Virus record (IMG/VR): IMGVR_UViG_3300024252_000039
Coordinates: 1-38,722 of that record
Length of the DNA stretch: 38,722 bases
Source: a virus
Strand: one strand, 5' to 3'
The notes below the pieces were generated by a model. It made no database searches, was not told where the DNA came from, and was given only the letters and a program-made list of their open reading frames with translations. The position numbers and the translations under genes were made by a program. Below, piece after piece: positions 15,259 to 32,888 of the stretch (positions are counted from its first letter, which is position 1; each line of letters starts with the position of its first letter).

Positions 15259-15969
15259 TCACCCACATTTAGAGTAACCGCAACCGTCAACTCCCTCACA
15301 CACCGGACAACCTTCCACTTCTCTCCAAACAGTGTTACCGCACTCACTACCATCTACCATAGCTACACACGGAGCATCTATGTACTGGAACTGTTCTAGT
15401 GTAGGTAGCTCTGGCACTTCGCCATGTGCCATCTGGTGCAGAGTCTTAGGTCGCTCAGACACTTCTCCTAGCGGTATTCCTATTGTAGAGAGTTCAGCTA
15501 TCTCCTCTCTAACCTCATGTAGTGTTGGAGCAAAGCAGAGGCTGTTTAAGATGTAACCTATCTCAGCTATAATGCTATCGTGCTGCTTCATCTTACCTGA
15601 GTCGTCCATCTTCTTCGAGAAGTGCCCCCCTTTAGGGTCATGGCTAGTGAGCATGTCTTTGATTAAGAACCCTACATCTCCTTCAACTCTCATGGTAGCA
15701 GACCAAGCTCTAGTTAACGCTTTGATCCACATCTGGTTATCTTTATTAGCGGTATTGCAAAATATCTCAAACGGCTTGCCGTCTTTCATATTAACTGTGA
15801 AGTAATACGCATGTTCGTAGTGGTGGCTCTTAACCTTAAACGTCTGTCCAGTTAAAGTAGTTGGACGTTTAAGTTTAGCTACTGCTCTACGCTCAGTGCC
15901 GTCCCATCCAGTAGTCAAGCTATCCTTGATAACTTCATATGCTGTGATTTTCTTTGTTATCTTCTTCAT
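15259..15969 (-). CDS. Stand-alone TSCPD-domain protein (NrdJ C-terminal-like)
   Basis: 236 residues. RPTTLTGQTFKVKSHH (35-50), FTVNMKDGKPFEIFCNTANK (57-76) and the helix around 85-105 match the TSCPD domain (PF12637 type) found at the C-terminus of B12-dependent class II ribonucleotide reductases. The C-terminal Cys pattern C201, C210, C221-x2-C224, C230, C235 resembles the metal or redox tail of those enzymes. The catalytic barrel is absent, so it cannot itself reduce ribonucleotides. It may act with a host reductase or bind nucleic acid. Neighbouring the dNTP diphosphohydrolase, it suggests a nucleotide module. Confidence 0.8.
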   Translation of the reverse strand: MKKITKKITAYEVIKDSLTTGWDGTERRAVAKLKRPTTLTGQTFKVKSHHYEHAYYFTVNMKDGKPFEIFCNTANKDNQMWIKALTRAWSATMRVEGDVGFLIKDMLTSHDPKGGHFSKKMDDSGKMKQHDSIIAEIGYILNSLCFAPTLHEVREEIAELSTIGIPLGEVSERPKTLHQMAHGEVPELPTLEQFQYIDAPCVAMVDGSECGNTVWREVEGCPVCEGVDGCGYSKCG

Positions 15970-30767: not shown

Positions 30768-32888
30768 ATGGCCCATGCTTCTAATATAGTAGAGTTGTCT
30801 GCTCCTCAAGAGATATTTCTCAATAAACTGGACACCAAGTTCATCGCGTATGTGGGTGGCTACGGATGTATGGAGGCGACCACTCGCATATGGACTGAAA
30901 AGGGGCTTATCCCCATCGCAGATTTAACTTCTGCAATTCGAGTTGTAAGTTGGAATGAGAAAGATCAACGATTCCAGCTTTCTCTAAGTGGTGGGAGCTT
31001 CCCAAAAGGTAGGGCGAATCTAATCCGAATTTCAACGCAGCAAGGAGAATTTGTTGCAAGCGAACATCACCGGACTCTTTCTTCCTCTGGTGAGTATGTA
31101 TCGGTCGGGTCGCTTTGCGTTGGGGATGAGTTGAGTTCATCCGAGTTACACCAGTATCACTCCAAGAGGGTTTTTGACCCGTTATTGTCGCCCGGAGGTG
31201 ATCAGCGTTACTCGCAAAGAGTCGTAGATTGGATGGAGCGTTATGCAACGTCAGCCCGTCAATATGGTCAACAATTTCTCCAGCCTCAAGCTCCCGGTCA
31301 AGAGTCTGAGTCATCACTAGACGATGTTCAAGGATTATCCCGGTCTTCCGATTGGCTCTCCTTCGTCCAGGAGTTAGATGCCGGGGACAGGAGACTAAAA
31401 CGTAACCATCCCGATCTATACGCCTCCCTCCTGCAAAAGAACCATTTAGAGATCCTAGAGCAGAGCCTCTCTCCCTCCGAGGTAGGTCAAGGGCCAACAT
31501 CGTTCTTTGGACGTATTTATGGTTATCTCGACAAAGTCGGGCGATCTGTTTCGAGGTTCTTATCCCATCACAATACTGCTCAATGTTCTTCTGACGTAAA
31601 TTCATTAGGTAACTCCAAAATAACAGCGGTTACGGTAGTGGACGTAGCACCATATTACGACATTCAGGTCTTAAACACAAACAATTACGTCTGTGAGAAC
31701 GGTTTTATTCATCATAATTCCGGGAAGACTTTTGTTCTATGCCTTGGATACCTTAAGTTTGCTATCGAGCATCCCGGCATCCTCCAAGCCCACTACAGCC
31801 CAACATACAAATCCATCAAGGATGTGTTCTACCCTACGATGACGGAAGCTGCTCAACTCCTTGGGTACTCCATCAAGATCAGGAGAACGGACAGCGAGGT
31901 AGACATCTCTTCTGGGTCTAATTACCTTGGTACGATCATTTGTCGGTCTATGGATAAACCGGAGAACATAGTTGGCTACCAAGTAGGGAACGATGGCGCG
32001 GATGAGTTGGATACGCTCAAGATGGACAAGGCGAGGGATTTTTGGCGGTACTCTCGTGCTAGGAATCGATTAGTCTCTCCCGGTGTCGATAATCGGACAA
32101 TGGTGGCTACAACACCGGAGGGGTTTAGGTTTGTTCATGCCTCATTTGCGGATCAACCAACACCGTCTTACTCCATGGTGCAAAGCTCCAGCTTCGAGAA
32201 CCAACGCCATCTACCTCCCGATTACATATCAACGCTACAGGAGATTTACCCAGCGGAGTTGGTCGATGCGTACATCAACGGGCAGTTTGTTAACCTGACC
32301 TCAGGCACGGTCTATAAGAACTTCGACAGGGGGAAGAACGATTGTGATACAACGGTTATTAGCGGTGAGCCTCTTCATATCGGGATGGATTTTAATGTGG
32401 GCAATATGTCTGCTGTGGTATTTGTGTTACGGAACGGTAATCCTCATGCGGTGGATGAGTTCTGTCAAATTCTTGACACCCCGGAAATGATCAATAAGAT
32501 CAAGGAGCGATACCCCAACCATGCCCTAACGGTCTACCCCGACTCCTCCGGTAAGAGCCGAAAGTCCAACGATGCTCAAAACACAGATATTTCTCTGCTC
32601 AACGATAACGGCTTATACTGCCTCTACAACGCTACCAACCCCATCGTTAAGGACAGGGTGGCTGCCAAAAACGCTATGTTCTGCTCTGCAACCGGAAACA
32701 GACGCTGCTTAGTCAACACCAAGAAGTGTCCAACCTACACCTCAAACCTAGAGCAACAAGCCTATGATGACAATGGAGAACCAGATAAGAGTGCTGGCAA
32801 TGACCATCTACCAGACGCTGGGGGCTACTACATCGCTCACCAGTTCCCCATCGTCAGACCCATTACGCAGATCGGTTATCGGTGGTGA
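30768..32888 (+). CDS. terL: Terminase large subunit (TerL) interrupted by an intein
   Basis: 706 codons, of which residues 34-317 are an intein, leaving a 422-residue terminase after splicing. The N-extein ends FIAYVGGYG and the C-extein begins SGKTFVLC, which together rebuild a Walker A loop GGYGSGKT. Walker B/catalytic site is GADELD, and the nuclease domain has GMDFNVG, YPDSSG and a final GNDHLPDAGGYY. The protein cuts concatemeric DNA and pumps it into the head. The P-loop is broken until splicing, so packaging depends on intein activity. The 3' end overlaps a convergent minus-strand gene by 26 bases. Confidence 0.95.
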   Translation: MAHASNIVELSAPQEIFLNKLDTKFIAYVGGYGCMEATTRIWTEKGLIPIADLTSAIRVVSWNEKDQRFQLSLSGGSFPKGRANLIRISTQQGEFVASEHHRTLSSSGEYVSVGSLCVGDELSSSELHQYHSKRVFDPLLSPGGDQRYSQRVVDWMERYATSARQYGQQFLQPQAPGQESESSLDDVQGLSRSSDWLSFVQELDAGDRRLKRNHPDLYASLLQKNHLEILEQSLSPSEVGQGPTSFFGRIYGYLDKVGRSVSRFLSHHNTAQCSSDVNSLGNSKITAVTVVDVAPYYDIQVLNTNNYVCENGFIHHNSGKTFVLCLGYLKFAIEHPGILQAHYSPTYKSIKDVFYPTMTEAAQLLGYSIKIRRTDSEVDISSGSNYLGTIICRSMDKPENIVGYQVGNDGADELDTLKMDKARDFWRYSRARNRLVSPGVDNRTMVATTPEGFRFVHASFADQPTPSYSMVQSSSFENQRHLPPDYISTLQEIYPAELVDAYINGQFVNLTSGTVYKNFDRGKNDCDTTVISGEPLHIGMDFNVGNMSAVVFVLRNGNPHAVDEFCQILDTPEMINKIKERYPNHALTVYPDSSGKSRKSNDAQNTDISLLNDNGLYCLYNATNPIVKDRVAAKNAMFCSATGNRRCLVNTKKCPTYTSNLEQQAYDDNGEPDKSAGNDHLPDAGGYYIAHQFPIVRPITQIGYRW
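30867..31718 (+). mobile_element. Intein in TerL P-loop carrying an opposite-strand endonuclease gene
   Basis: 284-residue intein. Block A: Cys1 at the start of CMEATTRIWTEKGLIPIADL. Block B: FVASEHHRTLSSSGEYV ending in GDEL (residue 122 of the ORF). Block F: VVDVAPYYDIQVLNTNNYV. Block G: FIHHN followed by Ser+1. Splicing residues Cys1, block B His, penultimate His, terminal Asn and Ser+1 are all present. Between block B and block F there are about 158 residues with no LAGLIDADG or HNH motif. That stretch is the complement of an HNH gene read on the minus strand (31605-30907). Confidence 0.93.
30907..31605 (-). CDS. HTH-HNH homing endonuclease encoded antisense inside the intein
   Basis: 232 residues on the minus strand, wholly within the intein DNA. 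GGAG lies seven bases before its ATG. The N-terminus (IEQYCDGIRTSKQIARLCRD, then VQRTMLALDLPR) is a helix-turn-helix. Residues 59-138 are an HNH_3-type nuclease: RRIDRDGYVLV, LEHRLVM with H94, IVDHIDG with D113-H114, N122 and N126-L, then DH at 135-136. About 94 further residues run opposite the intein's N-terminal splicing part and may be extra. HTH plus HNH occupy 31192-31605, exactly the gap between the splicing blocks. It should cut intein-free terL alleles; that target is inferred. Confidence 0.88.
   Translation of the reverse strand: MNLRQKNIEQYCDGIRTSKQIARLCRDNHKYVQRTMLALDLPRRERGSALGSLNGSFAGGRRIDRDGYVLVSCPRHLTPGRRRANRKTGIILEHRLVMTQTLDRELEAGEIVDHIDGLTLHNAPSNLRLFASNADHLRATITGQKPSWSDTGVTRMNSTHPQRKATRPIHTHQRKKESGDVRLQQILLAALKFGLDSPYLLGSSHHLEKAGIVDLSHSNLQLELQKLNLRWG

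Follow-up and report, generated by a model that had tools for sequence, protein, structure and literature searches.

To our knowledge, the endonuclease of known inteins is an in-frame domain. A different arrangement was reportedly described by Dassa and co-workers in 2009, in which fractured genes contain a split intein with the endonuclease gene placed between its halves. As for self-splicing RNAs, the gene for I-HmuI lies in a group I intron. Other group I introns carry antisense homing endonuclease genes, as in the case of Dsq.L2066 and I-DsqI, where the gene is located in a peripheral loop of rDNA introns (PMC9548176). An out-of-frame HNH insert has also been reported in ShiLan: it lies on the same strand, has no splicing domain and is thought to be retained in the protein, and its HNH gene uses a GTG start without a ribosome site (Arsenault et al. 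2025, PMC11855218).

The window considered here, that is, the whole stretch of 38,722 nucleotides that was analysed, is a virus record of the IMG/VR type; its plus strand carries structural genes, and the phage replication genes are found on the minus strand. A 236-aa ORF at 15259-15969 on the minus strand matches PHROG ribonucleotide reductase families (1.5e-17) and is far below the length of a full ribonucleotide reductase large subunit; several antisense ORFs, which are common by chance, are found in the window as well. The gene for the large terminase subunit (TerL), with matches to Pfam Terminase_6N (5e-15) and Terminase_6C (2.4e-8), is interrupted by an intein that splits the ATPase P-loop (GGYG^SGKT; Table 1). 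With a probability of roughly 0.88, we read this segment as a mobile intein whose two functions would reside on opposite strands, namely splicing on the plus strand and mobility on the minus strand. It is also highly probable that the segment is one member of a large, so far undescribed class of mobile inteins that is common in the terminase genes of tailed phages, with splicing and mobility on opposite strands, one fixed codon phase and probably a single origin. In this class, about 180 bp would be fully dual-coding, specifying part of the intein N-splicing half and the folded C-terminal domain of the endonuclease. The full-text literature searched, whose coverage leaves out many subscription papers and preprints, contained no account of an intein with its endonuclease on the antisense strand. 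This absence is no proof; the class is likely new to the literature.

Table 1. Features of the intein-bearing TerL locus, with positions in the window.
Feature	Position	Strand	Remarks
TerL ORF	30768-32888	+	706 aa; holds the intein
TerL N-extein	30768..30866	+	ends with the first P-loop half, YVGGYG
Insertion site, GGYG side of the Walker A motif	30855..30866	+	same junction in relatives; unbroken in intein-free TerLs
Intein	30867-31718	+	852 bp, 284 codons; Cys1 ... HHN, then Ser+1; block B His
Intein N-terminal splicing half (residues 1-95, blocks A-B)	30867..31151	+	pLDDT about 89-98
Sense-frame filler (intein residues 98-243)	31158..31595	+	mostly predicted disordered, pLDDT mostly <50; complement is HTH plus HNH core
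Intein C-terminal splicing half (residues 245-284, blocks F-G)	31599..31718	+	ends NNYVCENGFIHHN; pLDDT about 93-97
Insertion site, SGKT side	31719-31730	+	once joined to GGYG, presumed homing target
TerL C-extein	31719..32888	+	starts SGKT (second P-loop half); Pfam Terminase_6N and 6C
HTH-HNH homing endonuclease gene (putative)	30907-31605	-	232 aa; entirely within the intein
HNH protein C-terminal helical domain (residues 171-231)	30913..31095	-	complements intein blocks A-B; pLDDT about 90-96
HNH nuclease domain (about residues 59-141)	31183..31431	-	E93-H94, D113-H114, N122, N126, H136; Pfam HNH_3
Helix-turn-helix (HNH protein residues 1-38)	31492..31605	-	pLDDT 90-95; helices 3-11, 18-25, 29-38
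Ribosome-binding site GGAG	31613-31616	-	7 nt upstream of the HNH ATG

On the sense strand, the residues that define an intein are all in place. Among 49 relatives, C1, T10, G13 and H68 are invariant in the N-terminal splicing half and N273, Y274, G279, H282, H283 and N284 in the C-terminal one, a set that includes the Cys1, H68 and HHN of the splicing centre, followed by S/T+1. The AlphaFold model of the sense product, which drew on 48 intein relatives, contains a confident HINT domain made up of residues 1-95 and 245-284, with the middle part (98-243) mostly disordered. A Foldseek comparison of this model with solved mini-inteins matched 3ifj with a TMt of 0.87 and an rmsd of 1.8 A, and retrieved 39 PDB chains at E <0.001 with mini-inteins on top, as expected of a HINT fold. 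In addition, the C-terminal part of Pfam Intein_splicing was matched in TerL at 4.8e-4, under Pfam's own cut-off. The insertion is in frame, and the host protein is whole in its absence, as judged from 47 intein-free relatives with a continuous P-loop: in all of these closest TerL relatives examined (47/47), the motif (GxxG-SGKT) is uninterrupted exactly at the insertion point. Because the P-loop would otherwise be broken, the TerL intein presumably splices out, and both its anatomy and the P-loop disruption point to excision and extein ligation.

The complementary strand encodes a second protein. The antisense ORF matches PHROG 10730 'HNH endonuclease' over almost its whole length (1.1e-62) and Pfam HNH_3 slightly under the cut-off (3.2e-5). 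In 50 relatives, E93, H94, H114, N122, N126 and H136 never vary and D113 is kept in at least 90%, that is, the HNH motif retains the conserved catalytic residues of HNH homing endonucleases. The structure predicted for the protein is folded over its whole length (mean pLDDT 88) and comprises a helix-turn-helix, the HNH core and a helical domain at the C terminus; its closest PDB fold is I-HmuI (1u3e), a weak match with a probability of 1.00 but an E of 0.09 and about 90 columns aligned. Accordingly, the predicted structures place a disordered sense filler and a folded HNH core on the same DNA, while at about 30913-31095 the HNH C-terminal domain and intein blocks A-B, both predicted to be folded, share their DNA. 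Of 53 copies, 42 (79%) have a Shine-Dalgarno-like motif ahead of the HNH start, versus 7% at other ATG/GTG codons of the same strand. A promoter scan for the HNH gene returned no sigma-70-type match, and it is this ribosome site by itself that points to expression. An earlier note on this DNA had proposed a complete intein with Cys1, the block B His and HHN/Ser+1, and its coordinates and motifs match those found here. Its further proposal of an antisense HTH-HNH protein with H94, D113-H114 and N122 and with its own GGAG site is borne out by the PHROG match, by the conservation of those residues and by the position of the site. It had likewise seen no recognisable endonuclease in the intein frame, and indeed none was recognised, as sense residues 98-243 have no family match and are predicted to be mostly disordered. 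The view that the HNH gene fills the gap between the splicing blocks holds for the HTH and HNH parts; the C-terminal ~60-90 residues extend across blocks A-B.

Both reading frames carry marks of selection. When HNH codons were permuted in 15 copies with the HNH protein kept, the shuffles produced on average 5-12 stops in the sense frame of each copy, versus none in any of the 15 natural sequences; the two remaining antisense frames of the same copies contain 7-17 stops each. Codon-position rates in 24 independent pairs point in the same direction: within HNH residues 1-145, 32-53% of codons changed at the HNH third position and 9-19% at the second, which corresponds to the intein third, and near the HNH C terminus every codon position is slow. 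Specifically, a comparison of close pairs over the HNH core gave a dN/dS-like ratio of 0.24 in the HNH frame versus 2.71 in the intein frame, the purifying selection that the earlier note had asked about for the minus frame. Over HNH residues 179-232 both frames are constrained, since the corresponding values are 0.63 for HNH and 0.54 for the intein. In a second clade, the fastest intein codon position is the third in the N-intein (.176 vs.048 at position 2), the second over the HNH core (.199 vs.036 at position 3) and again the third in the C-intein (.196 vs.036). Taken together, these patterns show that the frames of both strands are selected. Neither is accidental, as in nearly all relatives found (see below) the HNH gene is antisense to a P-loop intein in one codon phase. 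The higher identity of inteins than of exteins could partly come from this double coding constraint.

Relatives were searched for without imposing any antisense-ORF requirement. Megablast of phages gave no near relative, and tblastn with the HNH protein identified eight Pectobacterium phages (57-59% identity over 100%) and PHS3 (48%); in PHS3 and in the Pectobacterium phages opened, the HNH gene is antisense to an intein-bearing TerL. An IMG/VR profile scan for window-type HNH reported 313 relatives, of which 80 were retained, and in all of these an ORF with intein splicing blocks runs opposite the HNH gene. L004 and L020 were rejected as distant HNH genes without a terL intein. For the most distant six or seven loci of this first scan the profile shows the C-terminal block alone, and the rest was read by eye. 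A second scan, with a profile of the most distant HNH members, reported 546 loci, of which 80 were retained, and displayed the same antisense layout in 77 of 79 new ones; L174 and L180 were discarded as chance antisense ORFs in a different phase. No close member of the HNH family was found outside inteins in the IMG/VR scans. As regards bacterial genome contigs, a single-sequence scan gave no matches and an alignment-based scan gave nine loci, six of which, including one in Enterobacter cloacae DSM 26481 and one in an Acinetobacter, have the arrangement. L109, L110 and L111 were rejected as further cases, being ordinary HNH genes or chance ORFs.

All host genes that could be classified are terminases, or P-loop genes at the terminase position; in five loci (L162, L168, L177, L187, L134) the TerL assignment is supported by P-loop and position, with no Pfam or PHROGs confirmation. 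The codon phase is constant across copies, with first position facing first and the HNH wobble position facing the intein second position. The insertion point varies in distant clades, for example GNR^SGKT and GNRxGK^T, and the junction in L001 and L003 is FVAGFG/TGKSQ. On this comparative evidence, the window intein is one copy of a widespread class, with well over 100 phage sequences, over a hundred of them IMG/VR contigs. Some members have features of their own. Related antisense-HNH inteins sit deeper in the P-loop (GNRxGK^T) in L162, L168, L175, L179, L186, L188 and L190. In the bacterial-genome copies L103, L106 and the E. cloacae locus (L105:3620-4660), the HNH frame is longer, with an apparent second N-terminal HTH-like repeat. 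The inteins of L027-L030 and L055 measure 341-358 aa; the linker that leads up to their C-splicing block is longer, and the HNH start codon is further upstream. Finally, the TerL frame of L127:452-3976 reaches 1175 aa, about 300 aa over its relatives, and is possibly fused with a neighbouring gene. Current annotations describe such loci in different ways: in PHS3 (L002, KX912252) TerL is annotated from after the intein, plus a separate HNH gene, and in Pectobacterium phage Ymer (L001, OP748252) the intein-bearing TerL is listed as 'hypothetical protein' and no HNH gene is annotated.

The occurrence of the element among close relatives is uneven. In the L126 TerL family the intein is found in about a quarter of 80 alleles, and L273, L276 and L277 are empty at about 94% nucleotide identity to the intein-bearing L126; two further alleles, L274 and L286, are not empty, their inteins being cut off by the contig end. 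This family therefore displays the presence and absence at the target that characterise a homing endonuclease, and Ymer and KW1E_UTAR form another intein-bearing/empty pair. Reduced alleles are also found. Three terL genes of the L126 family (L301, L315, L331) have at the same site mini-inteins of 132-136 aa without the HNH gene, the one in L315 corresponding to the N and C parts of L344 less about 183 residues, with the HNH-coding middle apparently removed. L018 has a frame break within HNH, and in L088 and L093 the N-terminal part of HNH is gone and the inteins are about 206 aa long. On a longer scale, between TerL groups without blastp similarity in their exteins, HNH proteins are 51-59% identical. 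Bootstrap trees of HNH are mostly sorted by TerL family, with TerL group 1 accounting for two to three changes; because the HNH tree mostly follows TerL family, moves between families would be rare or old. Judging from the alleles compared, the presence or absence of the element within a family is recent and its insertion is precise relative to empty alleles. Empty sites, mini-inteins and broken HNH copies agree with what the homing cycle predicts. The earlier note had asked whether the HNH frame is kept in related inteins and missing in intein-free TerL, as indeed it is in the IMG/VR relatives and in the 47 intein-free TerLs, respectively. It had also held that related inteins with a broken HNH would speak against its reading. 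Such inteins do occur, as the reduced and broken alleles listed above; they are a minority, and they fit the homing cycle at the stage when the endonuclease has become dispensable. Its idea of a two-strand selfish element is supported by the sequence tests; the locus, treated there as a single case, is one copy of a widespread class.

Four other explanations have to be weighed against that of a mobile two-strand intein. That the HNH reading is a spurious antisense ORF, a by-product of conserved intein sequence, might be thought of, as chance ORFs of this kind are common and several exist in the window. It is scarcely conceivable, given that in the core it is the HNH frame that is conserved, not that of the intein; it was rejected on the codon-position, codon-shuffle, ribosome-site and homology tests, which include full-length homologues, an invariant active site and a confident predicted fold. 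The converse explanation, that an HNH gene landed antisense in terL and that the intein-like open sense frame is incidental, with TerL dead or internally started, would accommodate the PHS3 annotation, in which TerL starts after the insert and HNH is a separate gene. A TerL started there would be without half of its P-loop, the fold matches solved inteins, and C1, H68, N273, Y274, H282, H283 and N284 are invariant; with sense-frame stops strongly avoided as well, a dead TerL with an HNH insertion was rejected, and we regard this explanation as extremely improbable.

The other two concern mobility and are less remote. The antisense HNH might be a real nuclease with a different phage role, such as packaging together with terminase or the exclusion of competitors, the intein being merely its location. 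HNH proteins near terminases are said to have a packaging role (a report attributed to Kala and co-workers, 2014, as cited in PMC10448857), and the classified hosts are all terminases or P-loop genes at the terminase position. This role is nevertheless quite unlikely, given that the 47 closest intein-free TerLs examined have uninterrupted P-loops, that mini-inteins persist without HNH, that no close family member was found outside inteins, and that the HTH-HNH layout and the best PDB match are typical of a homing enzyme. The element might instead be real and no longer mobile, either because HNH activity was recently lost in the window copy or because the family is a relic. The broken or shortened HNH frames of L018, L088 and L093 would fit with this, which we consider unlikely: the HNH of the window is full length and has a ribosome site and all active-site residues, comparisons of close pairs reveal purifying selection in the family, and presence/absence differs at about 94% nucleotide identity.

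For the mobile two-strand intein, the following cycle can be proposed. The intein would be translated within TerL and excise itself as a class-1-type element (Cys1, HHN, Ser/Thr+1), restoring the P-loop, with its N and C splicing halves building the HINT fold and the ~145 residues between them serving as filler without a confident fold of its own. The antisense of this filler and of part of the N-splicing half would specify an HTH-HNH endonuclease as a free protein, with a ribosome site of its own and presumably translated from a transcript of that strand. With its HTH and C-terminal domains the enzyme may recognise the joined P-loop DNA of terL in a prophage or co-infecting phage that has no intein, for the HNH core to cut; recombinational repair would then copy the element into the cut, a homing step modelled on established knowledge of homing endonucleases. 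As the insertion disrupts the target, the carrier would be protected. At later stages, relaxed selection on HNH with splicing kept would generate the broken and mini forms. In other words, we infer splicing, HNH expression, cleavage and homing from sequence.

The arrangement matters in several respects. A splicing element and its endonuclease would share DNA on opposite strands, with the sense frame bent into stop-free filler, and the class would provide a large natural set of antisense overlapping genes, of which real cases are few and disputed. Within 850 bp it offers clean contrasts between sense-constrained, antisense-constrained and doubly constrained zones, together with HNH-less alleles. 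It would also illustrate a way for an endonuclease to become associated with an intein without fusion and to be lost without harm to splicing. Such loci are misread in annotation, as in PHS3 and Ymer, and their HNH proteins may be able to cut a P-loop coding sequence common to very many phages.

Compared with the systems described so far, the locus combines features of several of them. Like fractured genes with split inteins, it joins a phage intein to a separately translated endonuclease, but here the intein is in one piece and the endonuclease gene overlaps it. With the group I introns that carry antisense homing endonuclease genes it shares a self-splicing element and an endonuclease gene on the opposite strand; those elements, however, splice as RNA and need not encode protein, whereas here both strands code and overlap, and the sense frame is open and selected throughout the element, which places it outside that group. 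To I-HmuI it is linked by the fold of the antisense protein, of which this is the closest, albeit weakly matching, solved structure. The ShiLan insert similarly has an HNH homing endonuclease in another frame of the insertion, with the host frame left open; the present element is of a different type, as its endonuclease gene lies on the opposite strand, has an ATG and a ribosome site, and is accompanied by a complete HINT domain. Finally, inteins with an in-frame endonuclease (LAGLIDADG, occasionally HNH) have the same HINT domain and Cys1/HHN/Ser+1 chemistry, the same choice of site in the most conserved motif of an essential gene, and the same empty-site and mini-intein alleles. The locus departs from them in that the endonuclease is a separate gene on the opposite strand, and the sense frame in its place is filler.
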